Shown: positions 18,801 to 46,236 of the stretch, one piece after another
Layout: each line of letters begins with the position of its first letter
Position numbering within the stretch: the first letter of the stretch is position 1
From: Amyelois transitella
Taxonomy: Eukaryota > Arthropoda > Insecta > Lepidoptera > Pyralidae
Reading direction: 5' to 3'
Length of the DNA stretch: 64,000 bases
Assembly: GCF_032362555.1 (NCBI RefSeq)
Contig: NC_083523.1
Span: 7,787,501 to 7,851,500, forward strand
Made by a program: the position numbers and the translations under genes
Notes under the pieces: generated by a model
Database searches by the model: none
The model's input: only the letters and a program-made list of their open reading frames with translations
What the model was told of the DNA's origin: nothing

Positions 18801-19395
18801 GGAATGACAATGTTGTCAATTAATTATAAAAATTATGATCTTTTGGTTTGGTTTAAGTACTTAAAATAATGGTTACGTATTTTTAGTAATTGAAAGCAAT
18901 GTGACAAAAATAAATAATAACTGAAAATATTATAAATTTACTACTACTTAGTTGCTGTCACAACTATGACTTATTAAGTATTTTATAAATGTATTTTATA
19001 TTAGAAGACATTCACCTTCACTTAACATTAATCTTCATTAACGCTCGTACTTTTTGACTATATAGTAATCACAAATATAAATATTTGAGATTCCCTCCAC
19101 ACACTTCCGTCCAATATACCAAATTCCAGTTTCATTTCCAAATGATAAATTGTATTGTAATCAAACATTATTCGGAAATAAAAGTGAGAATTGAAACCTA
19201 AAAGGTACCTATTTTTATCTCTTTGATTGTCATTAAAAGCACGTGACAATACAATACTTGAACCCGCGTATTGGAGCACATGTAACATTGTCATAAATTA
19301 AGACGCAGTGTCTGAATAAACATTTGTAAAACAAACTAGATAAGGTTGATAACACGACGCTGGATGCTGTATTGACGAGCAGTCGCGTTCCGACC

Positions 19396-22338
19396 ATGGA
19401 CAACTTCGGGTATCGCGAGATGAGTTGGCAGAGCCCGCCTACTACGCGAACATCGCAAAGAAGCAATCTCAGTAGAAGCTTCAGCTCCCGAACCAGAGAT
19501 TCCGAAGAGTTCCCCCTTAACGTCAGATATAAACATGTACGGAACATCGACCTACTCGAATCAGCTAGAGACGCTAACTCCACAAAGGATTATCTGTTTG
19601 TCGGCCCTTCACCACCCGCTGAAAATGCCCCAAACATGCACCAAAGTTTTGACGTGCTCGCCCCAGATTTGGAAGCACGTTTAACAGAAGAAGCCATAAG
19701 AAGAGGACTCTGCGAAAGAGCTGTTACTTTAGGCGCTGGAAGATTTTTCGATGACATGGAATGTGGATTGATTACTACAGAAAATATTGAAGAACACATC
19801 AGCTCTGCGCCAGAAGCTGTTATCAATTTAGCTTTATTATGGGCGACATTTTTGGCACGTGATGAACTTTTACCGGTTATTTTGAATGCTGGAGCCGACA
19901 TACACTATGCAGAACCAGCTGGACTTTCAGCGTTACATTTAGCCGCTTTCAGTGGAGCGAAAAATGCTGCCTTATATTTGCTCTCCCGTGGGGCCGATGT
20001 AGATTATGCTCCAAAATATTTCACGCCCCTACATTGTGCCGCTTTTGGAAATTCTGTTGAAGTAGCCGAAATACTGATTGCGAGTGAAGCATCTCTCCAC
20101 GCTGTAGTGCAAAGGGCTGGCTGTGAAGATAATCTAGTTCATTGTGCAGTGAGATCAGATGCCGTTGAATGTATGGATTTGTTCATAAGCTCAGGTGTTG
20201 ATCCGGGTTATGTGACTTCAGGAGGATTAAATGCGTTACATTTAGCTGCAGAGCTCGGATCAGTGCGTTGTCTTGGGTATTTACTTAAGGAAACTAAGAT
20301 AAGTGTAAATGGACTTACTAAACAAAGGGACAAAGAATGTACCGCTTTGCATTTAGCAGCGGCTCGTGGGTACGCGGAATGTGTGGAACTCCTTTTGGCC
20401 GAAGGTGCAAAAGCGAATACAATCAATCACAGAGGTTTCACAGCGCTACATCTGGCAGCCAGATGCTCTAGTCTGGAATGTGTGGAAGCTTTACTAAGAG
20501 ACGGTAATGCAGATCCTAATATTGAAGACTCTGATAAAAGGACACCACTACATGCTGCGATATGTGGTTCTGAGCGTGCTTCGGATATAATTGACATGCT
20601 CGTGAGTTGGGGAGCACAGGTAAATAAAAAAGATGTTTACGGATACTCCCCTCTACATCTAGCTGCTATAGACGGGTTGACGCCATGTGTTGAAACATTG
20701 ATATTTTTAGGCGCTGATGTAACATCAAAATCAAAGAAAGGACATACTGCCTTAAGTGTTATTGCTAGGAAAACGCCTAAATCTCTGGCTATCCTGCGAC
20801 ACAACTTAGACAGTGGAATATCCATAAGTCGACCGACCGAAGCAAATGAAGAAGTACAAATAGAATTCGATTTCGGCAAACTGTTAAAATTTTCTTACCC
20901 CCGAGAAATAACTTATTTGAATAGCTTAATTGATGAAGGTCAAAAAGACATATTATTACATCCACTGTGCTCGGCATTTCTGTTCATGAAGTGGCGAAAG
21001 ATCAGAAAATTTTACCTGGCGAGGCTTATCTTTTGTTTCTTGTTTGTATCATTTCTATCAATTTACGTCTTGACGACAGTTGTGAAAACATGCAAAGGAA
21101 AATATTCAGTGAAATATGGAGTTCCGAATGAATTGTGCCAAAAACAATCGCTTCTTGGCGTTATGTTGAAGAAGAACCCCATAGAATTTGAAAGGTGGAT
21201 CCTAATAGCTATCACTGCATTTGAAATTGTGCGAAAGTTGACTGGTATTACTGGGTATTCAAGTATGCACCAATATTTCACGACTTTTGAAAATTTGATG
21301 GAGTGGTTTGTTCTATTATCTGTATTTTCGCTGTATGACATAAACGATGACTACAGTTGGCAGAACCATGTTGGCGGGTACGCAGTGTTAGGAGCGTGGA
21401 CAAACCTTATGTTACTAATGGGCCAGCTTCCAATGTTCGGCGATTACGTAGCGATGTATCAGAAAGTATTGACTGAATTCTTAAAACTACTCTTAGCTTA
21501 CGTTTGCGTACTTCTCGGTTTCACTATATGCTTCTGTGTAGTATTTCCAAACGAGGAAATGTTTTCAAATCCTCTGATGGGTTTTATTTCCACACTATCG
21601 ATGATGGTAGGAGAGTTGAACTTGAGTATTCTCATCAATGACCCTATAAAACAAGATGATCCACCACTTTTATTTGAAATATCATCACAAATTATTTTCA
21701 TCCTGTTCCTTATGTTTGTCACTATTATCTTGATGAATTTGCTTGTCGGTATCGCGGTACACGACATTCAAGGTCTTCGCAAAACTGCTGGTTTATCGAA
21801 ATTGGTAAGGCAAACAAAGCTAATATTGTTCGTAGAAATGGGTATGTTCAGTGCTGTGCTGCCGAAATGTCTTCACAAATACGTTTACAGAACGGCATTA
21901 GTGTCACCTGAAGCTGGGAAAGTAATACTTATTGTGAAGCCATTGAATCCTCGAGAGAAAAGGTTGCCTACCGACATAATGATGGCGGCTTACGAACTAG
22001 CACAGCTAAACAAAATTAAATCTGGAGGATCGGTGAAGGAAATTTTGCATAAGAACAGATATTCATCCAAATTTAAGAACGAACCAAAGACACAAGACAC
22101 GACGATGAATATAGAAATAAGAGGAATGCAAGAGAAGATTGACCAGACGACGTTTAATTTGAAGAAGATAGATCAAGAAATGAGGCATTTGAACACATTG
22201 CTGATGGAACAACAGCATTTGCTCCAAACATTAGTTAAGTTCCATGACCCCAGTATACATAGATCTAGTCACGCGACTACACCATATAACGATTCACCTG
22301 TATTCTTTCCAAATAATGAGGTCTCTAGATATCAGTAA
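19396..22338 (+). CDS. pyx: TRPA-family cation channel, pyrexia-like, 980 aa, intronless
   Basis: One uninterrupted frame encodes a transient receptor potential channel of the ankyrin (TRPA) class. Residues ~150-470 hold about nine ankyrin repeats, with many copies of the TALHLAA / TPLHCAA signature. Six membrane spans follow at roughly 541-562 (S1), 603-618, 637-650, 663-680, 695-718 (S5) and 766-788 (S6), with a pore loop near 725-745. A C-terminal coiled coil lies at about 904-945. I chose the ATG at 19396 because it sits in a strong context (gaccATGG); the frame is open from 19330 but has no earlier ATG. A four-codon upstream reading frame starts at 19364. Layout, length and the EGQKDILLHPLCSAF stretch before S1 fit insect Pyrexia, a heat-gated channel in flies; Painless is the main alternative. 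Candidate polyadenylation signals are at 22539 and 22735. Family assignment is firm; the subfamily is inferred. Confidence 0.9.
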   Translation: MDNFGYREMSWQSPPTTRTSQRSNLSRSFSSRTRDSEEFPLNVRYKHVRNIDLLESARDANSTKDYLFVGPSPPAENAPNMHQSFDVLAPDLEARLTEEAIRRGLCERAVTLGAGRFFDDMECGLITTENIEEHISSAPEAVINLALLWATFLARDELLPVILNAGADIHYAEPAGLSALHLAAFSGAKNAALYLLSRGADVDYAPKYFTPLHCAAFGNSVEVAEILIASEASLHAVVQRAGCEDNLVHCAVRSDAVECMDLFISSGVDPGYVTSGGLNALHLAAELGSVRCLGYLLKETKISVNGLTKQRDKECTALHLAAARGYAECVELLLAEGAKANTINHRGFTALHLAARCSSLECVEALLRDGNADPNIEDSDKRTPLHAAICGSERASDIIDMLVSWGAQVNKKDVYGYSPLHLAAIDGLTPCVETLIFLGADVTSKSKKGHTALSVIARKTPKSLAILRHNLDSGISISRPTEANEEVQIEFDFGKLLKFSYPREITYLNSLIDEGQKDILLHPLCSAFLFMKWRKIRKFYLARLIFCFLFVSFLSIYVLTTVVKTCKGKYSVKYGVPNELCQKQSLLGVMLKKNPIEFERWILIAITAFEIVRKLTGITGYSSMHQYFTTFENLMEWFVLLSVFSLYDINDDYSWQNHVGGYAVLGAWTNLMLLMGQLPMFGDYVAMYQKVLTEFLKLLLAYVCVLLGFTICFCVVFPNEEMFSNPLMGFISTLSMMVGELNLSILINDPIKQDDPPLLFEISSQIIFILFLMFVTIILMNLLVGIAVHDIQGLRKTAGLSKLVRQTKLILFVEMGMFSAVLPKCLHKYVYRTALVSPEAGKVILIVKPLNPREKRLPTDIMMAAYELAQLNKIKSGGSVKEILHKNRYSSKFKNEPKTQDTTMNIEIRGMQEKIDQTTFNLKKIDQEMRHLNTLLMEQQHLLQTLVKFHDPSIHRSSHATTPYNDSPVFFPNNEVSRYQ

Positions 22339-28678: not shown

Positions 28679-29195
28679 ATCATTACCACAGTTCAACATT
28701 ACTAAAACAGGAAGCAAAACCTGTGAAATAATTGTCACATTTCAAACTTAACAAAAAGCCGAACTGTCTTGAACTCAAGGGTAATTCAAAGAATTTCATT
28801 GAGATAATTAAGGAATGAAATAGGAGGAATAAATAATTAGGTAGTTAACATAGACATGCTTCGTCTGAGGCACTCTGGCGTGCCAGACGGCGCCGGCGCC
28901 TTGCAAGTCTTTGACGAGGGACTAATTACTTTGAATCATGGTTAGGGATGGTACTAATCATAGTTCACATTTATAGATCAGTCTGATTCGAATATATGTA
29001 CTTATTTTGTTCTTAGCTTCTACATATCTCTGCCAGCGTAAAACTTTTTTGATTGCTCTTTTTTGGGAATCCCGGAAAATTCTCGCTCAGTATAAAAGGT
29101 ATCGTTACCTTTCATTTTATAAGGCTATACTATCCGTTGTACTATCAATACTGCCTCAATTGTTAAACATCCGAAAGGCTATCTCTTGGGAAGCT

Positions 29196-29298
29196 GGGAA
29201 AGAGGCGTGAATTTATGCATAGATACATACATACATAAAATCACGCCTCTTTCCCGGAGGGGTAGGCAGAGACTACCTCTTTCCACTTGCCACGATCT
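29196..29298 (-). mobile_element. LINE-C tail with a short inverted duplicate
   Basis: The tail on the minus strand (29226-29298) is preceded by a plus-strand piece gggaaagaggcgtga at 29196, forming 22-bp arms (one mismatch) around a 16-nt loop. SINE-A sequence follows directly at 29297-29345. Confidence 0.65.
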
Positions 29299-30059
29299 GT
29301 GCTAGCCCGTCGCCTTAAAGAAGAATCCCAAGTTTATAACCTTACGACATAAAATAACTCACAAAGTAATTCATATACATATTTATGCATAGATATTTAT
29401 AAAAAATCAGTTTGCGGGTATGTTTCTATCCGGATAAATATTTTTTTTTAATAATTATGTCATATTTATAATAACTATAAATATCCGGAAATCACATAGA
29501 TTAAACTAGCCCCAAATTAAATATTTAATGGTAGTTTTTGCTTTCAAAAAATCTTGAAAGCAATAACTACCATTAATAATTTTGTGAATTTAGTAGTGAC
29601 AGCCCTAGTCGTCATCCCACATATCCAGCAATTGTCAACCTGCATACCTCTTTTATTTATAGCACACGGCAGGTGAACCCAGTTCACGACAAACTAGCTA
29701 TATGTCTCTAAAACAGCCGTGCTTTCAAATAGCTAAGTTGAGTTTTTCTTAACAACCTTTCTTTCTAAGATCATCATTTCCCTATCAGAGGCAAATGATG
29801 GCGTCCCTGACTATTGGCTCTGTCTATCTTGTTAGGCACATGAGTGAGAGAAATTGTAAAAATATTTGTGTATGGTGGAATTTCTACTCCCTTGGAGATA
29901 CATTTTCCAAAATTGTAATATTTACCTTCCTAAAGACATCTGTTCTTTTCATATTTTCATTTTGTTATGTTTAATTGTAATTCTGGCAGGTTAAGGAAAG
30001 TATATGGAAATGAAATTTTTAAATAAGAAAAAGGAGTTAAGCTTAACATAAACACAAAT

Positions 30060-30277
30060 AATGCCTTGTGGTACCCAGCACTTAATAATAGGACCACTCC
30101 ATATATTTCCCATGGATTTCGTAAAAGGATACTAAGCTAATATAATTGAGAATCTTCTTATAAACGATGGTCTAGTAAAAATTTCAATCTCAATTCCATA
30201 ATTTATTGGTGGCATTGGCATTTCAGTCTTCTCAAGACCTTTGACTCTGTCTACCCGACAAGGAATATAGATGTGAT
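30060..30277 (+). mobile_element. SINE-A, diverged
   Basis: Recognisable head (ccttgtggtacccagcac) and body with many changes. Confidence 0.7.
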
Positions 30278-30993
30278 GAAAAATAGAAAAATAAAACTAA
30301 ATTTAAAGATATTTAAATTGTCGTTTGAACAGAAATGCTATAATTATTGTTACATTGCTCCAGATGCATTCTATAAAACCGCTTCTTCGACCATAACAGC
30401 CCTCAATTGATCCAAGTCGATGTTTTCAAACATTTCTAATGCTTATTTAACTTAGATGGCTGTAATTATCAGCTTTAATTTACTATTTTTCGCATAGTTT
30501 CTATGTAGTGCCGACGTTTTATAAAAAATATTTGTGCTATTACTGTCGTTCAACATTTTTTTTTATTTATTTATTCTTTATTGTAACAATTACAATTTGT
30601 AAAGCACAATAGGCGGACTTAATGCTGATAGCATTATCTAACATTATAATAAATTGCATGCTATAATTAATGGCTGACCAGGAGGAAATATATTTTATTC
30701 TACACCTTTTGTAAACCCTAAGCAAATAAATATTCTATTCTATTCTATAACAGTCTACCATTGGGTTAAGCATCTCTTATTATTATCACCCATACAAAGG
30801 TGAGAACCTTTGTATGGGTGATATGTATGGGTGATAATAATAATGTATAATAAACATAGTTTCTATACCATATAAACATATTGTGACGTTAAGGTAAAAC
30901 TTTGCAAGTAAGAGAGATGAGAGATAATTTAAAGATCTATAGAATAACTACAACCTTTACTAGGACTAGTGTGACTAGTGATTTTTTGTATAA

Positions 30994-31254
30994 GTGCCGT
31001 GTGGTTTCCGGCACTAATACAGAAAAGAATAGGACCACTCCATCTCTTTCCCATGGATGTCGTAAAAGGTGACTAAGGAATAGGCTTAACTTGGGATTTA
31101 ATTTTGGCGATGGTCTAGCAACCTGTCACTATTTGAATCTCAATTCTATCATTAAGCCAAATAGCTGAACGTGGCCATTCAGTCTTTTTAAGACTGTTGG
31201 CTCTGTCTATCCCGCAAGGGATATAGACCTGACCATATGTATGTATGTATGTAT
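30994..31254 (+). mobile_element. SINE-A, full length
   Basis: Intact head, body and (TATG)n tail. Confidence 0.9.
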
Positions 31255-31259
31255 CAGGA

Positions 31260-32700
31260 CTAATTACTAGGCTAGGGTCTAGCTATAGACACCAGATCCA
31301 GCAAGGAATCACCAGAGGATAGCGAGGTTATTAACTTGGTGAACGTTGAAGTAGACTAAAGGCGAAGGCCCGGAAGGAGAAGAGAAGGAGGACAGGGGAG
31401 ACCGCAGTGGCAGGTCAAACTTGCAGTTTGGATTGTAGATTTAACCTTTTTCAAATCCTTTCTGATTATAAACAGACAGACAGACAGATTTACAAAAAAA
31501 AAAACTTTGTTAATAACATATTTTTGTAATTTAACTCAAAAATTTTGTGATCGTCACAAAACGTCACCTGTACCATCTCTGTTATCTCCTTTATATTGTA
31601 TGTCCATTACATCAAATCGATAAAAACAGATACGTATTAAATAAAAGCGGATTTCCCACTAGATTCCCCATATTTATGAATGGATTAAGATAATCTTATA
31701 AGCCTACAAAAATTAGTATTGCTAAAATATAAAATAATCTAGCCTACTTTCTGGCTACTTTAATATATATTTTACCTATAGGGAACTATGAATAAAACAT
31801 AAGTAAGTATATGTAATAGCGTAATACACCCACATAACCTTTGATTCCTGGTTATGATTTAAAATTCTAGAAAAACACGATATCAACTTAATTGTCTTGT
31901 TACCATTGTAAAGTATAAGAAATTTGAGTCTTTGATCACATTATTATTAAACAGGCGGATTTGTTTCATGGCACATGAAAAATATTTATGCTTAGTCGAA
32001 CTTTATTCACCAAATTATGTTTTTTCATACTCTTCCTGATAGTGTTTGTGCATTTTTTTATTATGCCATAATACTGTTACATAAAACTTCTTCTAATACG
32101 CATCTCAATGTACAATATACAATGACATTTCTAATTCCGTATGTAAACTCATTTTTTACACCTATAACGCTATTTTTTTAAACATATTCATACTACTTCT
32201 ATAGTTATTATTATTTATTAGTTAATTTGATAGGTATTGTAAATTAATACCACCAGCGATCATTTTATTACCTCGTGCACATATAATTTAGATATTTTAT
32301 ACAACCTGCAGTTACGTAGAAATGGCTAAATATATTTTTATTGACGAAATCATTATATCTGATTATTAGTTAAACGAAACTTAATGTTTGCTGTAGTTTG
32401 CATACTGAAACTGAAGTTTTAAACTGAAACAAAATTAAATTCTTACACGATGAAGCGACTTAATTACGTCTGACCTCCATATAAGCAACTTTTGCAGAGA
32501 GAGAGAGAGAACACAAACAAATGATTACGTAATCAATGTCCATTTTTGTACATTCTCAGTTTAACGTCCAAAAATTTCTTTCTTATTACACATACGAATT
32601 TTTAAAAAAAAAAACACACCTGATTTATAAGCAAATTACTAAACGGTAGGAAATTGATCGTAAAGATAACGTGAGATAAACATATACGGTTGTAAATGAC
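31260..32700. other. SINE-free spacer before the trypsin-like gene
   Basis: AT-rich, with a short (GA)n at about 32496-32510. No coding frame or known repeat. It includes the likely upstream regulatory region. Confidence 0.4.
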
Positions 32701-32722
32701 CGAATAAAAGGCCACGTTATCG

Positions 32723-32760
32723 ACTATATCGATAATTGTCCGGTCGATAGTCAGTCAGTC
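32723..32760 (+). promoter_or_regulatory. candidate core promoter of the trypsin-like gene
   Basis: A TATA-like ctatatcg at about 32724 lies some 28 bp before TCAGTCAGTC at 32751, which matches the arthropod initiator TCAGT. The start codon follows at 32767, so the leader would be very short. Seen directly; function inferred. Confidence 0.45.
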
Positions 32761-32766
32761 ACCGAA

Positions 32767-35700
32767 ATGGCGCGGATCTTGGGTTTCACTGTTATACTGC
32801 TTGCGGGTATGTAGAATTTCTTACGCAATTCCTTTATTGCCGTGCCGTGTGGTTCCCGGCACCAATACAAAAAAGAATAGGACCACTCCATCTCTTTCCC
32901 ATGGATGTCGTAAGGCGACTAAGGGATAGGCTTACAAACTTGGGATTCTTTTTTAGGCGATGGGCTAGCAACCTATCACTATTTGAATCTCAATTCTATC
33001 CTTAAGTCAAATAGCTGAACGTGGCCATTCAGTCTTTTCAAGACTGTTGGCTCTGTCTAGCCCACAAGATATAGACGTGACCATTTGTATGTATGTATTC
33101 CTTAATTCAGACGATTTTCGGGGTCACAAACCGTCACAAGTCCTGGAAGTACGATGTTAATTCAGCACATACCTACATACAATTAGAGAGAGCTGCATGG
33201 CTTAATGATGGAATTGACATCCAAAGAGTAACTGATTGCCCTTCGGCCACGTTTTAGAAGAAGAAGAGAAGTTTTGAAAGTTAGTTAGTTTGAAGTTTAG
33301 AAGTTTATTAGCCATTGTGATAATCGGAATACAATTCATATCACCTTTACCATTGTTATTTAAATTTCTTCTTCTTCTTAGTCGAACACTCTCGTCAGAG
33401 TGGTCGTGGTTGCGCAAACGAGGTACATGGGGAGGTGTTCGGCGGGTCGTATTCTTTCCCGAGAGTTCTCTCAGTGATTCGCTTCCATTTCTGCCGGTTA
33501 CAGACGTTGCGAGTACGCTGGACCATGGTAGACTCAGTAGCTTTTTTGATCAGGTCAGTCCAGCGAGTTGGTGATCGGCCGTGTGTTCTCTTGCCTTCCA
33601 CCTGGCCCTGAATTACCAGTCTCTCCATCGAGTTCTCATTTCGAGAAATGTGACCAAAGAACTTTAGTATTCGTAATTGCACAGTTGTATTTAAATTTAG
33701 CTGTGGTTGAAAAAGTCTTTAAGCGAAAACTCATGACGTTTTGGTCAGTGTGATGTTACCTGCGTCAGTGTGATCCAAAATTACTATCATCAAAGTCATC
33801 TTAACGTCTTCACTGTTAACGTCATATCACTCAATTAAGGTGCCGTGTGGTTCTCGGCACTTCAGGATAAGACCGCTTCATAACTTTCCCATGGATCTCG
33901 TAAAAGGCAACTAAGGGATGTGCTTTTAAGCTTGCATTCCTCTTGTAGGCGATGTGTAAGCAACCTGTCACTAGTTGAATTTCAAATACATCATAGCCAT
34001 ACGGATTAACCTGGTCTTCCAGTCTGTTCAAGACTGTTGGCTCTATCTACCCAGCAAGGGATATAGACGTGATTATTAGAATAAATTGCTCAAATAAAGG
34101 GATTACCTACCTTCGATTGCACCATAATCACAGTAATAGTTTGCCTCTGTAAATTGTCCACTGATTCAAGACTCTTGGCTCTGTCTACCTCAAGAGGGAT
34201 AAAGAGGTAGTTTGTATTTCATGTGGATATAAGTCGTATATGGACTTAAACAGTAAAATTTGATCAAACACTGGTTTCCACTCAAATTTTTGTTTCTATT
34301 TCCGTTCGTTGACTCTCTCTGTTTGTACAATATTCTAAAAAGTAAAATTTATTTATACTCCCAATATACTTTATATTGGGAGTATAAATAAATTTTACTT
34401 TTTTTAATTATTACACAGATTGAGTTAGCCTCGAAGTAAGTTCGAAACTTGTGTCACGAAATACTAACTCAACGATACTATATTTTATGATAAATACTTA
34501 TATCGATAAACAGGCCTAGACTAATCAGAAAAACTTCATGCCCTAGCCGGGATTCGAACCCTGTATTCCAAAGTACAGGGCCACTACACCTAGTTTGGAA
34601 AACAGAGTTTTAAATATTGATTTTTAAAATCGTCTAAAATCTTAGACTTGTACAAAAATTTACATAAAGAAAGTCAAAATGAAGAATTTTTCCTTTTTTT
34701 TTATACATACATACATACATACATATCATCACGTCTATATCCCTTACGGGGTAGACAGAGCCAACAGTCTTGAATAGACTGAAAGGCCACGTTCAGCTAT
34801 TTGGCTTAATGATAGAATTGAGATTCAAATAGTGACAGGTTGCTAGCCTGTCGCCTAAAAAAGAATCCAATGTTTGTAAGCCTATCCCTTAGTCGCCTTT
34901 TACGACATCCATGGGAAAGAGATGGAGTGGTCCTATTCTTTTTTTTTTTTTTTTTTTTTTTATTGGTGCCGGGAACCACACGGCACGGTTAAGTAATAAA
35001 AAAACATTGTTCTATTTTAATCAACAATCAAACAGTAAGTACTATAATTTTAAGATAACCAACTGACATACTGACTGTAAATTATTTTATTGTTTCTGAT
35101 AAGGATAACAATTCTTTGGCGGTATGGAATCCGAAAGTCTACGTGATAATCCACTGGTTATTTGGAAGGAATAATTGTAGGCGACTAGCTTTTAGCCGCA
35201 GCTGCGCCCGCGCAAATTTAGCGACACCTACACGCGCGAATTCATCGCCACGTACAATAGAATACAGGTTTTTCGCAATGAAAGCAATGCCGTGTGGTTC
35301 CCGGCACCAATACAAAAAAGAATAGGATGTGAAATGGAAATGGAGTGGCCATTTCTTTCCCATGGATGTCGTAAAAGGCGACTAAGGGATAGGCTTACAA
35401 ACTTGGTATTCTTTTTTAGGCGATGGGCTAGCAACCTGTCACTATTTGAATCTCAATTCTATCATTAAGCCAAATAGCTGAACGTGGTCATTCAGTCTTT
35501 TCAAGACTGTTGGCTCTGTCTACCCCGCAAGGGATGTCCCTTGCGGGGACGTCTATGTAGACGTGACCATATGTATGTATGTATGTAATGTATAGCCATA
35601 GTTTTTACCGGGTAATACTATAAGTAACCTGTGTCCTTCTCCAGACTCTAAATTGAATTTTCACACAAAGATTTAAAAGATCTTTAAATTCAAGGAAATT

Positions 35701-38700
35701 TGTTCATTTTAATTCAAAATCTTTATTGCATTTCAAAAATACGTCAGTTGAATACGTCAATCCCAAGTTTATTTCTAACGGCCTCTGTGGCACAGCGGTA
35801 ATACGCTTGTCTGTGACACCGGAGGTCCCGGGTTCGAAACCCGGTCAGGGCATGATGAGAAACGAACTTTCTCTGATTGGTCTGGGTCTTGGATGTTTAT
35901 CTATCTAAGTATTTATTTTAAAATATAGTACCGTTGAGTTAGTATCTCGTAACACAAGTTACGAACTTACTTCGAGGCTAACTCAATCTGTGTAATTTGT
36001 CCCGTATATATTTATTTATCAGCCTTGCCCTCGATTGATTTTTACAGCTGTAGCCTGCAATAAAGCAGCTTCAAACAGGATCGTTGGCGGAGAGTTGACC
36101 ACTATCGAATACTACACTTCCCTGGTCCAAGTGGAGTTCCTGGGGGTGTTCACTGGCACCTGGAGCCAGTCGTGTGCCGCCAACATCCTCAACTCCAGGA
36201 ATGTATTATCTGCTGCCCACTGTTTCGAGGGATTGTAAGTATAAATCAGTTCTTAGATCATGATCAACCGATCTTATCTTATCTTTTTTTTATCGGTGCC
36301 GTGTGGTTCCCGGCACCAATAGAAAAAAGAAGAAAGGACCACTACAAGTCTTTCCCATAGATGTCGTAAAAGGCGACTAATGGATAGACTTATAAACTTG
36401 AGATTCTTCTTTTAGGCGACGGGCTAGCAACCTGTCACTTTATATGAATCTCAATTCTATCAGTAAGCCAATCAGCTGAACGTGGCCTATCAGTATTTTC
36501 AAGACTGTTGGCTCTGTCTATCCCGCAAGGGATAAAGACGTGATTATAAGTATGTATGTATCAATCAATCAATTTTCTTATTGCGTAACTAAGTGATGGT
36601 CAAAGAACATCTTCACACTCTTTGTGGCGCAGCGGTAGTGGGCTTGACTGTGACACGATATGCCCCGGGTTAGAATCTATGGGTCATGGAAATTTATCTA
36701 TGTATATTTATATAAAACATAGTATCGATGAGTTAGCGTCTGGTAACACAAGTTCAGAACTTACTTTGAGGCTAAATTAATCTGAAGAATTTTTGTTAAA
36801 AAATAGTGTAAAATTTGTCCCGTATATATTTATAAAAAAAAAAAAACTGAAAAATCTGCTGGGCGTAAGAAGATGATATGTTTCTTGGGCAATATTCAGA
36901 ATCATAATAACATTTCTTTTTAATCTTTATACTGTATTTGCGTAAAGAAGATAATATATAAAACATTATTTTGTACTATATTCCAGCCTGTACGAGCCTT
37001 CACGTCGTCGTATCCGCGCCGGAGCCACCTTCCGCAACACCGGTGGAATCCTCGCCCTGGTCGAACGTGAATTCAATCACCCTACCTATGGTCTTAATGC
37101 CATGGACGGTGACGTCGCCGTCGTCAGACTAAGCGAGCCCCTGGTCTACAGCCCCGTGGTCCAACAAGCCACAATTGTCGCTCAAGATACAGTCCTCCCC
37201 GATAATCTGCCTGTGGTTCATGCTGGATGGGGCGCGACCTCTGTAAGTATCTTGCCATGGATGGTGACGTCGCCGTCGTCAGACTGAGCGAGCCCCTGGT
37301 CTACAGCCCCGTGGTCCAACAAGCCACAATTGTCGCTCAAGATACAGAACTCCCCGATAATCTGCCTGTGGTTCATGCTGGATGGGGCGCGACCTCTGTA
37401 AGTATCTTGCCATGGATGGTGACGTCGCCGTCGTCAGACTGAGCGAGACCCTGGTCTACAGCCCCGTAGTCCATCAAGCCACAATTGTCGCTCAAGATAC
37501 AGTCCTCCCCGATAATCTGCCTGTGGTTCATGCTGGATGGGGCGCGACCTCTGTAAGTATCATGCCATGGACGGTGCCGTCGCCGTCGTCAGACTGAGCG
37601 AGCCCCTGGTCTACAGCCCCGTGGTCCAACAAGCCACAATTGTCGCTCAAGATACAGTACTCCCCGATAATCTGCCTGTGGTTCATGCTGGATGGGGCGC
37701 GACCTCTGTAAGTATCATGCCATGGATGGTGACGTCGCCGTCGTCAGACTGAGCGAGCCCCTGGTCTACAGCCCCGTGGTCCAACAAGCCACAATTGTCG
37801 CTCAAGATACAGTACTCCCCGATAATCTGCCTGTGGTTCATGCTGGATGGGGCGCGACCTCTGTAAGTATCATGCCGTGGATGGTGACGTCGCCGTCGTC
37901 AGACTAAGCGAGCCCTTGGTCTACAGCCCCGTAGTCCAACAAGCCACAATTGTCGCTCAAGATACAGTCCTACCTGATAATCTGCCTGTGGTTCATGCTG
38001 GATGGGGCGCGACCTCGGTAAGTATCATGACTGTTTGAAGAAAGTTTCGTATAGAGCAGACATCTCAACGACAGGTGAGCCCGGTAGCGCAGGAGCATGT
38101 GAACGAACCTAACACTACGACGATAGATCTGAAAGCCTATGATATTCCAACTCCAAACAAAACTTAAAGCCTCAGACCCCTACCAAAAATTTATTCAAGT
38201 ATGGATTCTCAAAGTGGAAGGAAATTAAATCGACAAGCAAAGAAGGAGAAACAAAAACCTGCAAACAAAATTCAAAATAAAGAATATTCTAACAATACAT
38301 ACATATGGTCACGTCTATATCCCTTGCGGAGTAGACAGAGCCAACAGTCTTGAAAAGACTGAATGGCCACGTTCAGCTATTTGGCTTAAAGATAGAATTG
38401 AGATTCAAATAGTGACAGGTTGCTAGACCATCGCCTAAAAAAGAATCCCAAATTTGTAAACCTATCCCTTAGTCCCTTTTTTTTCTAATTATAACTATAG
38501 AAATTAAATATTTCTCGGGAGTTTTCCCTAGAACGGACAGTCAGTCTGTTGGCTCTGTCTCTCCCGTATAAACGTGATTATATGTTATAACATAACAATT
38601 TTATATCAAATTCAACTATTTAAAATATATATATATATATATATATTATTTTCCAGTGGCAAGGACCCGCTTCCAGTCAGCTCCAAGACGTGACCATCTA

Positions 38701-38962
38701 CACTGTTAACAACGAGCTTTGCCGCCAACGTTACCTCGCCCTTCCCAACCACGTCGTCACCACCAACATGATCTGCGCCGGCATCCTCGACGTCGGTGGT
38801 CGTGACGCCTGCCAGGGAGACTCTGGTGGTCCCCTGTACTACGATAACATCCTTGTTGGCATCGTCTCCTGGGGACACCAATGCGCCAATGACACCTTCC
38901 CTGGAGTCAGCACCGCTGTTGCCCCTTACACCAATTGGATCGTCCAAATTGCAGAGAGCTAA
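32767..38962 (+). CDS. trypsin-like serine protease (S1 family), 262 aa, four exons
   Basis: Exons are 32767-32806, 36048-36234, 36987-37242 and 38657-38962, with intron phases 1, 2 and 0. Residues 1-16 are a signal peptide. A short propeptide ends in Arg24, before the activation motif IVGGE. The triad is His71 (LSAAHCF), Asp118 (GDVAVVRL) and Ser217 (GDSGGPL). Asp211, six residues before the serine, predicts trypsin specificity (cleavage after Lys/Arg). The usual CGG after the first active-domain cysteine is CAA here. The length is normal for a secreted digestive protease, and the closest class is the lepidopteran trypsins. Introns 1-3 are packed with SINEs and LINEs. Exon 3 is followed by five extra tandem copies of its 3' part with donors; only the first donor (37243) gives an intact protein, because reading on meets a stop after about 15 codons. 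AATAAA is at 39106. Expression in larval midgut is a family-based guess. Confidence 0.88.
32842..33098 (+). mobile_element. SINE-A, full length, in trypsin intron 1
   Basis: Head begins 35 bp after the exon 1 donor. Confidence 0.9.
33375..33682 (-). mobile_element. LINE-D: second RTE-like retrotransposon C-terminal fragment, in trypsin intron 1
   Basis: The minus-strand frame reads [20 protein letters not shown], then [28 protein letters not shown] and a PPNTSPC-like end. This is the C-terminal pattern of another RTE/BovB-type reverse transcriptase protein, distinct from LINE-C. It is 5'-truncated. Confidence 0.75.
33839..34076 (+). mobile_element. SINE-A, in trypsin intron 1
   Basis: Head and body present, diverged. 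A tail fragment of another copy is at 34150-34205. Confidence 0.8.
34410..34562 (-). mobile_element. SINE-B, lacking its extreme 5' end, in trypsin intron 1
   Basis: Shares acacagattgagttagcctc and the reversed box B (ccgggattcgaaccc). Sequence is lost beyond box B, so box A is missing. Confidence 0.75.
34703..34986 (-). mobile_element. SINE-A, full length, with a 26-nt T-run
   Basis: The A/T-run near the head is expanded to about 26 (34939-34961). The copy is inverted relative to neighbours in the same intron. Confidence 0.9.
35288..35586 (+). mobile_element. SINE-A, full length, with an internal fold-back insertion
   Basis: All parts are present, but after ccccgcaaggga the copy reads tgtcccttgcggggacgtct before rejoining the consensus at tagacgtgacc. 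Confidence 0.92.
35778..36022 (+). mobile_element. SINE-B, full length, ending 25 bp before trypsin exon 2
   Basis: Intact box A and box B (gggttcgaaacccgg), with the usual end cccgtatatatttattta. Only about 25 bp separate its end from the exon 2 start at 36048, so the branch point of intron 1 may lie in or beside the SINE. Confidence 0.85.
36294..36561 (+). mobile_element. SINE-A, full length, in trypsin intron 2
   Basis: Head begins about 60 bp after the exon 2 donor. Confidence 0.88.
36620..36840 (+). mobile_element. SINE-B, diverged, in trypsin intron 2
   Basis: tttgtggcgcagcggtagtg (box A) and ccccgggttagaatc (degraded box B), then the family end with a short internal insertion and an A-rich tail. 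Confidence 0.75.
37099..38028 (+). repeat. six tandem 155-bp copies of the exon 3 end plus 5' splice site
   Basis: Copies start at 37099, 37254, 37409, 37564, 37719 and 37874, nearly identical to each other. Each holds about 144 bp of exon 3, from gccatgg through GGGGCGCGACCTC(T/G), then gtaagtatc. Donor sites therefore lie at 37243, 37398, 37553, 37708, 37863 and 38018. 155 is not a multiple of three, so copies cannot be read through in one frame. Few differences between copies imply recent expansion, or an assembly error. Confidence 0.93.
38297..38590. mobile_element. SINE-A copy and tail fragment in trypsin intron 3
   Basis: 38297-38480 (-) lacks the head; 38528-38585 (+) is a tail fragment. 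A (TA)n run at 38621-38646 precedes the exon 4 acceptor. Confidence 0.75.
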
Positions 38963-39105
38963 ATTAAATGTTGATTTTTTTTTAAATTAATTATATGGTT
39001 TTCAGTTATGTTTGCCTTTTATTTAATTCTGGATAATATGATGACATTTTTTTTCGTGTTAATTTAGTTTCACAACAACAAAAACATTGGTTAAATAATG
39101 GCATC

Positions 39106-39111
39106 AATAAA
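39106..39111 (+). terminator. candidate polyadenylation signal of the trypsin-like gene
   Basis: AATAAA 144 bp after the stop codon at 38962, in an AT-rich 3' region. Confidence 0.45.
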
Positions 39112-39409
39112 CAATAATCTACCTGAGATATGCGAAGGAATATAACAAATTATTTGGACTCGTACAAAACGCCTCTTACAAAACGTTACTCCAGTGTGAC
39201 GTCACATGTTAGTATCTTGTTCGCGTCGTAAAATTATTTGTATGGCAGCTACCTATATTATTGCGTTTATGGATATGATGTCTTTATAAAAAGTATTCCA
39301 TATTTTGGTTTATTCACTCCTGGCATAGTTATTTTTTAATAATATTGATTTTTTTAAATTGACTTTCCCATTATTTTTTGCGATGCTGTGTCTCAGTTAG
39401 GGTCGGTAG

Positions 39410-39640
39410 CTTACATGATCGTCATAACGTGTGCCAGTATTAATCAACCTATGTCTTAACATCGTTGGTCTTTTTGGGCCGTCAATGCGATACTGACTCC
39501 TACCCGATAATGCTCCTTACAACATCTCGATCGACGAAATTGCCGAGAGCGAAATTATTTATTGCTTTCCTAAGATTAATTATACGATCTTCAGGTATTA
39601 TATTCCCCTTTTATTGGATTCCGGATCAGTCATTAATTTT
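39410..39640 (+). pseudogene. decayed copy of the trypsin last exon and 3' UTR
   Basis: The stretch from about 39457 aligns by eye with the end of the protease at 38850-38962. The 'gggccgtcaatgcg' and 'aaattgccgagagcgaaatt' segments match the sequence around the terminal WGHQCA and QIAES codons. Similarity continues into the 3' untranslated region (aattaattatacgatcttcagg against aattaattatatggttttcag). Frames are broken. It is a same-strand relic of a tandem duplicate. Confidence 0.65.
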
Positions 39641-39689
39641 GCAGCTTCTTACTACGAAATTTACCTAGGTTGTCTCTGATATTGTTGAT

Positions 39690-39900
39690 ATCAGATGTTG
39701 CGTCGGCAATCACTATATTCTGAATGATTCTGGTGGCCCTCTATACCATGACGACATTATCGTTGAAACATTCTCTTGGGAATAACAGAATTATTTGTAG
39801 TAATTCGTCAATGATATTTTAACCTAGAGCAAGTACTTACATTGCCCCGAACGTAAATTACTGATTTTCGCATTTGATCAAGAATCTTAATCTGCTACGA
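39690..39900 (+). pseudogene. second decayed copy of the trypsin last exon
   Basis: It keeps the codons for D-S-G-G-P-L (gattctggtggccctcta at about 39727), followed by ataccatgacgacattatcg, which matches the live gene's tactacgataacatccttg. Before it, gatgttgcgtcggcaatcac corresponds to the DVGGRDA region. Stops (including tga just before the serine motif) and indels show it is dead. Confidence 0.7.
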
Positions 39901-40339
39901 AACTGTTTTGTACCTCTTTTTTTATAATGTAATTATTTATGTTAAGAATGGAAATGCAAATTAATAATTCGGCAATATGTGTTGGTACCTCTCTGTGACA
40001 CATTTTTTGGACATATATTTTGTTACTTGCTTTCGTCCGCGACTCCGTCTGCGCGGATGTCGGTCTTCGCGTGGATGGTTTATTTCTCTATTTTGAATAT
40101 CTCTGACAATGACATCTTATAAATATCTATTAGACCCAAATACGGCTAGGCCTACAATAATTAAGGAGATCCCTCGATTGCGCTACTGCTGTTGTGAGCT
40201 GTGTGTGAGCTCGCGATCTGTAGTAAGTATTTATTTCATAGTAATTCCGACCTTGATAAGTAGCATGTAGCAGTAAATTACCGACAGTGATGAATAGTTT
40301 GCAAAAATAAAAAAGTGATCGTGACAATGCGACAGAAAG

Positions 40340-40570
40340 TTAATTGAGAGCTTCAGCATATACAACATTGTAAGTGAGCTTGTCCGGAATATGAACATGA
40401 AGATTTCTTAAACTGCTCACACAGGAAAGAGCTATGTTAAGTTGCCCGTGTGAAAAACAACTCGCGGTAAGATCTACGCCAGCAACTCCTAGGGTCTGAA
40501 CTTGAGCCTTATTTATTGTCATGGCGTAACACAAAGCTACAGGATTCTCTTAAATTGAAATGGAAAATTG
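40340..40570 (-). pseudogene. Helitron Rep/helicase C-terminal fragment
   Basis: The minus strand reads CYAMTINKAQ, then CFSHGQLNIALS and NVVYAEALN. These match the last motifs of the PIF1-like helicase domain of Helitron rolling-circle transposons, where AMTINKxQGQT and FSHGQLYVALSRV are typical. The conserved Gly (QGQT) is Val and the Arg (ALSRV) is Cys. A frameshift at about 40545 precedes a further FPFQFKR-like stretch. A dead fragment; the rest of the element is not seen nearby. Confidence 0.7.
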
Positions 40571-41647
40571 TTGAGAAACGGCGCTGAATCTACTGCGGGT
40601 AACGCAACGTGTGTTCGCGATTCTACAGACGTCTATGGATAAAACTGAAAAATTAAGATTTCTTTTGTATTTTTCCAGGATAAAAAGTATCCTATTTTAT
40701 GCCCAGGATAATAAGGTATAATTATACCAAGTTTCATCGAAATCGAACCGTTAGTTTTCTCGTGATGCCTGAACATACAGACAGACAAAAAAAAATTTAA
40801 TCACATATTTGGGTTTGGTATCGATCCAGTAACACCCCCTGCTATTTATTTTTTCAATGTTTTCAATGTACAGAATTGACCCTTCTACAGATTTATTATA
40901 TGTATAGATAATTATTAGGGCTTTTATTTTTTTGTTCTATTTCTGCTGCCACAGAAAACTATTTATTAAAAACTTTATTGCACAAAAAATATGTTCAAAG
41001 GGTAGACTTAATACCGCTTAGTATTCTCCACCATTCAACCAGCTGACCAAACAGAAAAACTTTAAGTTGGTGGTGCAATAAAGTGGTATACACAATATCT
41101 CGTGGTCTTTTTATATGCTCTACTTAAGAAACTTCCTTAGAGTTTATTTCCACTTCTTTTTCAGAAACAGTTATAAAACGAATTATTTACATTAATTCGA
41201 AACAAAAAATACTTGGATACTCTTCAGACGATGATAGCTGATTTACATTTTTTATTATTATACTAGAAAAAAATAAAAAGAAAACAAGTTATGACGTATG
41301 AAAAATGTTTATTTTTATGTAAAATACATATACCTATAGATATTCAAGTAATAATGACCATAATCCAGATAGTGTAAATCGGATAATGTAGTGTACACTT
41401 ACATAAACAATGCACCTTGAGAAATGATTTCTTTAAGGTTCCTCGGGTGCAATGAAAGTCAAAGATATTGGGCAAGGATACCTCAGCTGATCATATTGCT
41501 TGTCATGTCATAAGACCGTATTAGAAGTGTAATACTGGTCTTTTAACACTATTAACTTAAAAATTTTAAGTATTTTAAGAATGAGATATCTGCCAAATGA
41601 AATTATTGCTATAAAAATAATAAATATATAAACAAAATCAAAGGTCT

Positions 41648-41820
41648 AGAGGAACGTAGGTACCTTGATCAAATCAGGGTCGTCCTTTCAAGAGTACCCA
41701 AAATCGACGAGTTTGCATCAATAGAGTTATGAATGTAGATAAAGCGAAAGAAGTATGCAGGGATCGTGGCAAGTGGAATGATGTCTCCGTCTACACCTCC
41801 AGGAAGGAGGCATGATTTTT
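41648..41820 (+). mobile_element. LINE-C 3' tail, next to the stop of the protease homologue
   Basis: It matches the LINE-C tail (agttatgaatgtagataaag, gtatgcagggatcgtggcaa). It starts 18 bp beyond the homologue's stop codon and lies antisense to it, so the gene's 3' UTR must run through it. Confidence 0.75.
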
Positions 41821-41837
41821 CATAGGCAGAAACAAAA

Positions 41838-44800
41838 TTACGTAGCCGTGGCAATGATCCAATCAGTGAAAGAGGCGACATCAGTGCTGACCCCTGGGAA
41901 ATCAGGTAAAGCACATCCTTGTCCCCAAGAGATGATTCCGATCTGAATATTCTGGTAGAACAGAGGGCCTCCAGCATCGTCTTTACACGCGTCCCGACCT
42001 CCTTCGTTGAGGACTCCTGCGCAGATCATGTTGCTAGTGATGTCTCGAGGAGATTGTAAGGATTGGTAGCGTTGGGCGCAGAATGACCGGTCGACGCTTT
42101 GGACTTCGACTTCTTGGAGGACATCAGCGTGGGATGCTGATCCGGTTGTCTGTGAACAGAGTTATATAACTGTGATTAGGAAATCGTTAAAGACAATTCA
42201 ACAATAGCTATTTGGCTTTGAATATTGGAGACTACTCGAACTGACCTTTTATTTATAGTCAAAAAAAATTACTGATAGGTAAAGTTACATACATACATAC
42301 ATACATAAAATCACGCCTCTTTCTCGGAGGGGTAGGCAGAGACTACCTCTTTCCACTTGCCTCGATCTCTGCATACTTCCTTCGCTTCATCCACATTCAT
42401 AACTCTCTTCATGCATGCAAGGTACTTTTGACCTGACCCTTTACCAGGACGTCCTTAATTTGATCAAGATACGTTCGTCTAGGTCTTCCCACTCCGACCT
42501 TTCCCTCCACACTCTCATTGTATATCTGCTTAGTCAACCTGTTTTCATTCATCCTCTCCACATGACCGAACCATCTCAACATACCCTTTTCTATTCCTGT
42601 AACTACATCTTCTTTCACATCACAACATTCCCTTATCACGCTGTTCCTTATCCGGTCACTCAATTTCACACCCATCATACTCTTTAACGCTCTCATTTCC
42701 ACTGCATTTATTCTGCTTTCGTGCTTCTTTTGCCATACGGACCAACACGCCCCTATGCACAGCCACAGTAAAGTTACAAATAAAAATTAATGATATTAAA
42801 ACAGGCGGACGACTGTGATAAGAGAGTCTAGATTCCTACTGTTGTAGCTCGGGTGGTTGATGGCATAAGGGACCTTGATGATGATTCTGATGCGGCAATT
42901 ATGTTTTTTCGTTATTAGAGACAAATAGTTTTCAATATCATTAAACGTTACAATGATACTTATGAACTTACCAATGTTCGACTCTTTAAAGATGGCTTCT
43001 TCAGTATAAATGTTAGCTGTATTAGAGGTAGATTTTATGCGAAATTACATACATACATACATATGGTCACGTCTATATCACTTGCGGGGTAGACAGAGCC
43101 AACAGTCTTAAAAAGACTTAATGACCACGTTCAGCTATTTGGCTTAATGATAGAATCGAGATTCAAATAGTGACAGGTTGCTAGCCCATCACCTAAAAAA
43201 GAATCCCAAGTTTGTAAGCTTATCCCTTAGTCGCCTTTTTCGATATCCATGGGAAAGAGATGGAATGGTCCTATTCTTTTTTGTATTGGTGCCGGGAACC
43301 ACACGGCACAATTACTTGTTTAATTTCATCATACAAACCGAAGTGAGACCCCAGCCGACGTAAGTCACAGGAATGTTGCCGGGGAAATCGAACCCGCTGC
43401 CGATGATGACAGCCTGCTGGATCGTGGTACCAAATATCAGCTGGGAAGACAGGCGGACGACGGTGATGTCAGAGTCCAGATTCCTACTGTTGAAGTCAGG
43501 GTGGTTGATGGCGTGTGAGATCTCGACGACGGATCCGCCGGTGTGACGGTTAGCAGTGCCAGCTCTGATGCGGCGGTCGCGGTCCGAGTACAGACTGGAA
43601 TAGATTAACATACACATACATATAATCACGTCTATATTCCTTGCGGGGTGGACAGAGCCAACAGTCTTGAAAATTCTGATAGGCCACGTTTGGTTGTTTG
43701 ACTCAATGATGGAATTGAGATTCAAATAGTAACAGGGTGCCAGCCCATCACTAGTATATCCCTTAGTCGCCTTTTACGACATCCATGGGATATGGTGTGG
43801 AGATATAGAGTAGTTCCTATTCTAAAGTGCCGGGACTCACACGACACATTGTTTCTTCTTATTCTAAAAGAAATTAATCCATTTCTACTTCTATAGAGAG
43901 TGATTATAAAAATTTACCTTCCTGAGAAGCAATGGGCAGCAGACAAGATGTAAACTGAGTTGAGGATGCTACCAGCACACTGCTGGGTCCAGGTGAAAAT
44001 GGTACGGAACTCCACTTGGACTACTGCTGGGTAATTCTCGATGGCCGTGTCGGAACCACCTATTATACGACTGGATCCTGATGCGTTGGAAACTGCCGCT
44101 AAAAGATTTTTTATTATGAAACTAACAGTACAAAAGTAAGCGGTAATTTTTGACCGACTTCAAAGAATCAATGTCAATACGATCGTATTTTTTTTTTCTA
44201 TGCTCCAAATAAAAAAAAAATCGATCTTTCAGTTACTAATGGCTGTGTGTTACAGCACTCATAAGAATAGATATCATAGAATTGACTCTCTTCACTTGTG
44301 TAGCTTTTAATAGGATGTGAACAATAAGTAGAATATCTATTAGAAAAAAAAATTTTTTTTCCATGCCCCGACTATATAAGACGACTAAATAATTAAAGAC
44401 AATTATTTCGTCAAAAAAAATCTTTCGTCTCTCTCTTTCTCATCTCCGCGTGTTCCAGGTTGCACCCTCCACAGAAGTGTTTCGGGGCCCGGGGTCTGCC
44501 TTCCGACTTTCCTCTCTCCACTTGGTCCGATTTTCGGCGTCCTCGGATTTCAGTCCATTGGCTCGCATATAATCCTTTGCGAGGAGCCATGATAAAATGC
44601 TGTCATATAGTTAACTGTAAAAACTTTGATAAGATTATTACAGAATAAATTAAACTTTAATTGTTTAAATCATTCACATTGTCACTTTCACATCTTCAGT
44701 TAAGAAAAAAAGAGAATCATTGCTACAATTGGGGCTTTAATTCTACCCCCCAGCGGATGGAATTGAAGGCCGACTGGTCACTCTGCTCACCGCTCCGTGG

Positions 44801-45051
44801 AGAGCGGCCGAGCCGAGGCCGCCGATTTGAGTGAGGGTAGCCCACGCTGCCAGTACCGAAGCGGTAGGCGGTGTGGTTTTAGTGGGTTCAAGCCCTACAT
44901 ATCCCGACCGTCTTCGGCCGGGCAGACAAAGGCCCTTCCACACATAAAAACACACACAAAAAAGGGTTACCCCTTTTTTATGTTAGTTGTATTAAAATAA
45001 ATTAGAAAAGATACCTGCAGCAATAAGCACTAACAACAATTTGGCCGCCAT
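41838..45051 (-). CDS. serine protease homologue (catalytically inactive S1 fold), 261 aa, four exons
   Basis: Minus-strand exons in order of translation are 45051-45015, 44098-43918, 43594-43339 and 42149-41838. Phases are 1, 2 and 0, and exon 3 is 256 nt, both exactly as in the trypsin gene at 32767-38962, so the two are duplicates. Residues 1-16 are a signal peptide; Arg23 precedes the activation motif IIGGS. His68 (LSAAHCF) and Asp115 (SDITVVRL) are intact. The serine motif reads CKDDAGGPL in place of CQGDSGGPL: Ala217 replaces the nucleophile and Asp215 replaces the oxyanion-hole glycine, so peptidase activity should be lost. Asp211 of the substrate pocket is kept. Such homologues act as binding partners or cofactors in other insects; the role here is unknown. 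The exon 3 donor is gtttgt, weaker than usual. Introns hold SINE-A, LINE-C and a relic exon. Frames are clean, so this is a gene rather than a pseudogene. Confidence 0.87.
42289..42765 (-). mobile_element. LINE-C 3' end (RTE-like), in intron 3 of the protease homologue gene
   Basis: This is the same protein end as at 11419-11935, on the minus strand (RALKSMMGVKLSDR, LRWFGHVERM, GRPRRTYLDQIKD), with a (CATA)n tail on the plus strand. It carries a ~25-bp internal deletion near its 5' edge. Its 5' truncation point is within a few bases of that of the 11419 copy. Confidence 0.85.
42800..42905 (-). pseudogene. relic second copy of protease exon 3 inside intron 3 of the homologue gene
   Basis: Plus-strand 'caggcggacgac', 'agattcctactgttg' and 'gggtggttgatggc' repeat the order and wording of the live exon 3 at 43450-43515. 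An in-frame stop and substitutions mark it as decayed. It implies an internal exon duplication, or a remnant of another paralogue. Confidence 0.7.
43045..43308 (-). mobile_element. SINE-A, full length, in intron 3 of the protease homologue
   Basis: Intact. It ends about 30 bp from the exon 3 boundary. Confidence 0.9.
43606..43848 (-). mobile_element. SINE-A, in intron 2 of the protease homologue
   Basis: Starts 12 bp outside exon 3. Head degraded to gccgggactcacacgacac. Confidence 0.8.
44440..44600. repeat. GC-rich retroelement fragment, copy 1 of 2
   Basis: ggttgcaccctccacagaag through tcagtccattggctc. A matching piece is at 54920-55035. Probably a LINE remnant; class unknown. Confidence 0.5.
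44740..44960. repeat. GC-rich interspersed element in intron 1 of the protease homologue
   Basis: About 220 bp with far higher GC than the flanks (gagagcggccgagccgaggc, cgtcttcggccgggcag). It is not coding in the gene's frame. Probably a LINE 3' region. Confidence 0.45.
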
Positions 45052-45103
45052 ATTTAAAACGTTCGTTACCACAATTAAATGTAACAACCAATTTCTTCAT
45101 CAA

Positions 45104-45110
45104 TTTATAC
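45104..45110 (-). promoter_or_regulatory. candidate TATA box of the serine protease homologue gene
   Basis: Minus-strand TATAAAT lies about 55 bp before the start codon at 45051. A TSS near 45075-45080 would give a leader of roughly 25 nt. Confidence 0.5.
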
Positions 45111-45699
45111 ATCCATGTTATCGTCAATTATAAAATTTTAATCCCTTTGTTTATTACGAAATTAGACACCGCACAAATCGAAATAACTTGTTGCTATAGA
45201 AAATAATAGAAAAACCCTATCGGTTATCAAAGTTATTATAACTTGATGATTGTAAGTTTTTTTAAAATTTGTTTATCTTTATTATGGGACATTTAAAACA
45301 TCACTTAACAATTTTCATATCTTTTGGTTTCACTCAATCAATGTTGATTAACGTCCAATAAAAAACTAAGTTTGCTTCGAAAGCGTCAGTGCAGAAGAAG
45401 TGCTAACAAACTGCAATGCAATTTAGAATTTGAATAGAAATATGGACGAGATAATACATTGTCATTGTTATGATAAATTGATTTAATTGAAATATTTTTT
45501 TAAATGGAATGTCAAATTTTAATACATTGATGTATACAGTGTACCTACTGAATTTTGATTTGAACCTACTAAAAATCTTCAACTGTTCAGAAACTTTAAT
45601 GAAGCATAGATCACAACAGGGATCCATCGAAATAGAGAAATAGAGAGAGAGAGAAGATAAAATATATGTTGTATCATAAAGAGTCCCACAGGACTTGAA

Positions 45700-45892
45700 T
45701 TCATCACTACATAGTATAAAACAAAGTCGCTATTTTAGTCTGTTTGTCTGTATGCTTAAATCTTTAAAATTACGCAACGGATTTTGATGCGGTTTTTTGT
45801 AACAGGTATAGTGATTCAAGAGGAATTTTTATGTATAATTTTTTCCGAATTTTGCACCCGTGCGAAGCCGGGGCGGGTCGCTAGTATGACAT
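45700..45892 (-). mobile_element. 'GCGACCCGCCCCGGCTT' family repeat
   Basis: Minus strand starts TAGCGACCCGCCCCGGCTTC. An inverted sister copy lies at 47636-47822 and a diverged one at about 24030-24150. Confidence 0.75.
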
Positions 45893-46236
45893 AATTTGAG
45901 CACAATTTTTGCCTGACATAGGTTTCTGTCGCAATAGTAGCGCGGCTCATTCAGACCTCCTTAACCTTAAAGTCTCGAGAAATGAAAGGAGAAATTGAGT
46001 AGTCCTTTTAAACCATTATAGTATATTAAGCAGTTAAACATAAAAGGCGACGTTCTTAAAGCATGATCATAACCTTTAATTTTCTCAATATTTTTTAAAG
46101 GAATTTAAGACATAAGAAACGACATAGTTAATAAGAAAGCATTAATTACGAGTAGTATATCCTCCAATACCTTCGGTCGCAAGCTGTGAAATTGTTATAA
46201 AATTTAAAAATAAATTTTGCTGTTACGCTTTTGCGT

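Follow-up and report, generated by a model that had tools for sequence, protein, structure and literature searches.

An unusual but explicable tandem duplication across an exon–intron border of an insect trypsin gene

Tandem duplication can alter the exon–intron layout of a gene while its protein stays the same. In the AGGT duplication model, described for vertebrate ATP2A1 in PMC4974935 and PMC3443670, an AGGT within a repeated piece of exon supplies both a new donor and a new acceptor. The array analyzed here, which in the predicted spliced layout of a trypsin gene runs over the border between exon 3 and the beginning of intron 3, shares the altered layout and the protein that can remain intact, but AGGT occurs zero times in each of its units and in positions 37091-38040 of the window (the whole 64,000-base stretch of DNA that was analyzed). 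The expected outcome also differs, since no intron is gained; instead, an existing intron is lengthened and its donor multiplied. Because AGGT is absent and the outcome is a lengthened intron, we do not count the array as a member of the AGGT model. A case with a 24-bp exon unit containing AGGT has tandem copies of an exon piece inside introns (across four duplicates and across two), as here, but the 155-bp unit described below includes the actual end of the exon together with its natural donor. In a potato RdRp gene, according to PMC4974935, the duplicated exon–intron stretch likewise has a GTAAG donor; the potato copy gave rise to an additional spliced intron and exon, whereas our unit is without a natural acceptor.

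For the choice among donors, the closest described systems are minigenes with two identical donors, described in PMC9225289, where the donor-competition work of Reed and Maniatis is also retold. In both settings tandem donors compete for one acceptor. The minigenes, however, were designed, carry two donors and were used in human cells, whereas the array presents six donors in a natural insect gene, with the last one stronger. Rules for donor choice come mostly from designed minigenes and from statistics on unlike sites. This natural gene, with five donors alike and a sixth that is stronger, all evenly spaced, and with a protein frame that would tell which of them is used, pits the strength of a donor against its proximity across the exon. 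An exon-end array in a trypsin gene was unreported among the titles and abstract beginnings of the matches listed from the open literature, and PMC12776774 contained no splice-related passages.

We conclude that the array, although unusual, can be explained as a variant of the tandem duplications that affect gene structure. The account that we favor, and consider moderately probable as a whole, is a duplication spanning the exon border that grew by exchange, with donor 1 in use, units 2–6 reduced to passive intron and unit 6 of allelic origin.

The array and its host gene

The assembly searched comprises 327,366,114 bases in 33 contigs, and the window corresponds to C19:7787501-7851500. Within the window, TRF places an array at 37097-38029, with a period of 155, 6.0 copies, 96% matches, 0% indels and a score of 1726. 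Together with the alignment of the units, this bears out an earlier note on this DNA, which had claimed six copies of the end of exon 3 and its donor at 155-bp spacing; all six of the donors that it listed were located (Table 1). Each unit consists of the final 146 bases of exon 3 followed by nine bases of intron 3. When the sequence is compared with itself at lags of 20-2000 bases, the top 150-base match is 99.3% within the array and 94.7% outside it (lag 506, position 25056). In a DNA search of the genome with the unit, the best candidates scored were the six places of the array only, at 95-100% identity. Pattern searches for relatives gave 7 matches in viral_contigs and 21 in genome_contigs, with 0 confirmed in either set.

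Table 1. Predicted exons, intron 3 and repeat units of the trypsin gene, in window positions (a slash marks the exon–intron border)
Feature	Position	Strand	Remarks
Exon 1	32767..32806	+	13 residues and one base; least certain exon
Exon 2	36048..36234	+	contains IVGG and AAHC
Exon 3 with donor 1	36987..37242	+	256 nt; ends with the 146 exon bases of unit 1
Intron 3 if donor 1 is used	37243..38656	+	1414 nt; units 2–6 inside; acceptor AG ends at 38656
Exon 4	38657..38962	+	GDSGGP and stop codon
Unit 1	37097..37251	+	donor GT at 37243, tct/GTAAGTAT; no private changes
Unit 2	37252..37406	+	donor at 37398; private Val to Glu
Unit 3	37407..37561	+	donor at 37553; two private changes, Pro to Thr and Gln to His
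Unit 4	37562..37716	+	donor at 37708; private catalytic Asp to Ala
Unit 5	37717..37871	+	donor at 37863; no private changes
Unit 6	37872..38026	+	donor at 38018, tcg/GTAAGTAT; private changes 4/5 synonymous

The host gene is a four-exon trypsin. For its first exon, 29001-36040 was scanned for a hydrophobic start with fitting phase and donor; of the 4 candidates, the best was taken. The protein predicted from donor 1 has 262 aa, and its frame is intact with this donor only among the six, as the earlier note had proposed. The Pfam Trypsin domain matches at 4.6e-46 (248 aa, exon 1 left out), and in an alignment to crayfish trypsin 2f91 the 262-aa protein has the His/Asp/Ser triad and the trypsin specificity Asp. 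Domain, triad and specificity Asp together place the protein among the trypsins (S1A). In the same alignment, the catalytic Asp of 2f91 is matched by the Asp within the unit, the part of exon 3 that the earlier note had called Asp-bearing. With the array removed, intron 3 would be 639 nt long, which is inside the range of approximately 178-760 nt in the 8/13 relatives measured.

The end of exon 3 was read in 13 hits to other trypsin-like genes, from stretches picked among 76 genome matches. The donor placed by script is at exactly the same codon border in 8/13 and one codon earlier in 2/13. In 1/13 the script picked a site 2 bases off, although GTAAGTTG is present at the border, and in 2/13 the proper donor went unscored. 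One of these is L048, where the trypsin-like exon 3 border around 708 has GCAAGT instead of GT, possibly a GC donor; the other is the minus-strand relative in the window, for which the scored coordinate was off and the border is TCG/GTTTGT. Position -1 in the eight same-border genes is T in 6 (four tct, one gtt and one act) and G in 2. Two of the eight have exactly TCT/GTAAGTAT, and 2 more have NNT/GTAAGTAT. Since such borders are frequent in the family, donor 1 is ordinary for it; the G at -1 in unit 6 may be either ancestral or newly acquired. In 11/13 of the hits, the exon end is not repeated in the next 3 kb (or up to the end of a shorter stretch). In the remaining two, the match in L040 is by position the exon 3 of the next gene, and the minus-strand relative has one decayed partial copy.

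The stretches L040, L041 and L042 (C2 10.107-10.129 Mb) form a further cluster of trypsin-like genes; wherever the border of exon 3 was read there, it is the same. No exon-end array was found in this cluster, and in L040 and L041 no tandem arrays were found at a score of 100.

Donor strength and predicted donor use

The nine intronic bases of the donor are the same in 6/6 units. Base -1 is T in units 1–5 (TCT/GTAAGTAT) and G in unit 6 (TCG/GTAAGTAT), and the computed pairing with the 5' end of U1 is -11.2 for donor 6, the strongest, and -7.3 for donors 1–5. The extra sites had been described as five perfect decoys, which does not fit donor 6, as it differs at base -1 and pairs better with U1. 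An additional strong donor-like site is present in the intron at 38075, with a U1 pairing of -11.1. Use of donors 2–6 would extend exon 3 to 411, 566, 721, 876 or 1031 nt, and each of these donors, like intron retention, leads to a stop at codon 176 and a product of 175 aa. The earlier note was right that later donors bring an early stop, which it tied to 155 not being a multiple of three. The stop is nonetheless independent of the number of units retained: it falls inside unit 2 and stays at codon 176 even where three additional units add 465 bp, a length divisible by three. With donors 2–6 the last junction would follow the stop by 110-730 nt, and a message that is stopped so far ahead of it is generally exposed to nonsense-mediated decay. 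Messages from these donors would have the stop position seen in splicing coupled to this decay, and they should be unstable.

The human data in PMC9225289 indicate that the upstream of two near-equal donors is preferred when there are long introns on both sides, long introns being separated there by a 250-nt border. In human-cell minigenes with two identical donors and long flanking introns, the same source reports exclusive use of the upstream donor. The intron before exon 3 is 752 nt long, and the one after it is 1414 nt (donor 1) or 639 nt. Because exon 3 would be located between long introns, the spliceosome would be expected to pair its acceptor with the nearest downstream donor, donor 1, which we consider quite probably the main donor. 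The prediction is clear among donors 1–5 and less clear between donor 1 and donor 6. The suggestion that ignoring the decoys would be a special feat loses its force, since exon 3 sits between long introns, the very setting in which the minigenes of PMC9225289 used the upstream donor. If donor 1 is used, units 2–6 would be passive intron, and intron 3 would be longer by 775 bp of exon-like sequence drifting without coding constraint, with which the private changes in units 2–5 are consistent.

The U1 strength of donor 6 counts against the use of donor 1. Donor 6, which surpasses the others in U1 pairing and lies closest to the acceptor, could instead be the main donor, in which case most messages would have the codon-176 stop and the allele would be nearly silent or on its way to becoming a pseudogene. 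We consider this rather unlikely. It would agree with the stronger donor being dominant in 86% of human events and with the classical rule that the donor nearest the acceptor is preferred, both from PMC9225289, as well as with the relics and the inactive relative nearby. That source also states that, before correction for strength, the downstream donor is favored in most events of each of the four classes of architecture. However, donor 6 requires an exon of 1031 nt. Between long introns, inclusion is poor once an exon exceeds about 500 nt (PMC9225289), and donor 6 is less favored because its exon lies beyond this limit for efficient exon definition. In Table 1 of the same paper, the preference for the stronger site also drops to 77% if the minor-site and major-site exons are both >250 nt, and to 58% if the minor-site exon is >250 nt and the major-site exon is 50-250 nt. 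The intact frame of exons 1, 2, 3 and 4 with donor 1, and the lack of any private change in unit 1, likewise argue against donor 6 and for donor 1.

It has also been proposed, in the earlier note, that the isoform ratio may act as a control. The extra donors would then cause a share of transcripts to be stopped early and to decay, setting the level of active trypsin, a role that we regard as very improbable. Stops 110-730 nt before the last junction with each of donors 2–6, and intact donors in 6/6 units, are what such a role would produce, but the nine donor bases would remain unchanged 42% of the time by chance. For this reason the proposal is unsupported, as is selection preserving the donors. 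The unit is, moreover, confined to this locus among the best candidates scored in the genome, and 11/13 exon-3 hits are without a downstream copy. Equally improbable is a splicing rheostat, in which units variable in copy number would each add an unproductive donor and so set trypsin output, with edge units refreshed from single-unit alleles and inner units decaying.

Origin and divergence of the units

The copied stretch joins the last part of exon 3 to the beginning of intron 3, and its tandem duplication would have begun at a 3-bp match, where exon and intron both contain ATG. The parent sequences are TCTTA-ATG-CC (exon) and GTATC-ATG-AC (intron), and the junctions into units 4–6 are GTATC-ATG-CC; in units 2 and 3, T replaces the A of the junction ATG. 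Because the junctions of units 4–6 are hybrid and ATG is found in both parents, they point to duplication at this 3-bp match. The six units vary at 14/155 columns, 1 at the junction and 13 in codons, with 2-10 pairwise differences and 0 identical pairs. All four combinations are seen in 5/10 informative column pairs, which therefore reflect either sequence exchange among units or repeated change of the same base. Growth of the array by exchange between units is consistent with these mixed site patterns, which are indirect evidence for it.

The array could be, in part or as a whole, a product of assembly, either through a wrong consensus copy number or because a haplotype with the array was joined to the last unit of a single-unit haplotype. 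Unit 6 does differ as a second haplotype might (8-10 differences from units 2–5 and 7 from unit 1). We nevertheless hold an artifact to be unlikely, given that no units are identical, 14 columns vary, the period is exact with zero indels, and the assembly has 327 Mb in 33 contigs. Simple looping of reads appears unlikely because of the unit-specific changes, the lack of indels and the 33-contig assembly. A haplotype join at unit 6, if true, would itself imply a single-unit allele.

The substitutions differ in kind among the units. Changes private to units 2–5 are synonymous in 0/4 cases, which by itself is no departure from neutrality (neutral probability 0.23-0.30). The four shared columns and the five private to unit 6 are synonymous in 8/9 cases, where 26-31% would be expected without constraint (probability 0.0002-0.0006), and Fisher's test of 8/9 against 0/4 gives P = 0.007, figures that are suggestive only because the grouping of columns was chosen after the data were seen. 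Between unit 1 and unit 6, 6/7 differences are synonymous (neutral probability 0.002-0.005), which simple duplication does not explain. Had unit 6 been unused since the duplication, it would carry mostly amino-acid changes; it therefore resembles sequence that diverged while coding, as an allele still in use would.

Unit 6 may thus have come from another allele, one with a single unit, by an exchange in which the two were aligned on their right flanks; we put the odds of this step at about even. It requires a synonymous distance of 0.18, which is high for alleles and is based on few sites. Exchange between array and single-unit alleles on either flank would renew the edge units from coding sequence while the inner units decay. 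If this route is true, single-unit alleles exist, and the array may be polymorphic; the locus would then represent an early stage of a coding duplication being absorbed into an intron.

Other sources for unit 6 were considered. A paralogue in this assembly was rejected, as the unit matched only its own six places among the best candidates scored, and with no close enough relative in the assembly, another allele, or a copy outside the assembly, is the likelier source. A genome search with exon 4 found itself and two pieces, at 71% and 73%, and no other match. Continued translation of unit 6 was also rejected: the AGGT that would allow a clean jump between units is absent, and the 20 most pyrimidine-rich acceptor-like AGs give lengths that are not multiples of three; a poorer AG, chosen by eye, would give an in-frame 105 nt. 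Whole-exon duplication with alternative exons fails because the unit is without the exon 3 acceptor and its length of 155 would break the frame, so that the array does not have the whole exon, with acceptor and donor and in frame, that defines tandem exon duplication.

Neighborhood of the gene

A second trypsin-like gene is located at 44105-41844 on the minus strand. In this gene DDAGGP replaces GDSGGP, changing the catalytic Ser to Ala, and it is probably an inactive serine protease homologue. Its intron 3 contains a decayed part of exon 3 (42885-42802, minus strand; 57/67 bases in the best stretch), with Leu at the position of the catalytic Asp. This is a second case in the cluster of exon 3 sequence copied into intron 3. 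Decayed pieces of a trypsin exon 4 are found just 3' of the array-bearing gene, at 39504-39553 and 39726-39787 on the plus strand, and one of them reads DSGGPLYHDDIIVETFSW.

An interspersed repeat of ~265 bp forms 68 merged regions and occupies 10,984/64,000 bases of the window; one copy is in intron 2 (36296-36561) of the array-bearing gene and a piece is in intron 3. Two short tandem arrays are present at 4699-4941 (107 bp x 2.3) and 12171-12350 (92 bp x 2.0). ARAGORN gives five tRNA-His-like hits, at 10608, 18440, 26431, 35781 and 53421, which are perhaps tRNA-derived SINEs; the hit at 35781 also just reaches Rfam tRNA in a search that covered 30000-46000. On the plus strand, 19333-22335 is an apparently intronless open frame of 1001 aa with ankyrin repeats and an ion transport domain, resembling a TRPA channel.
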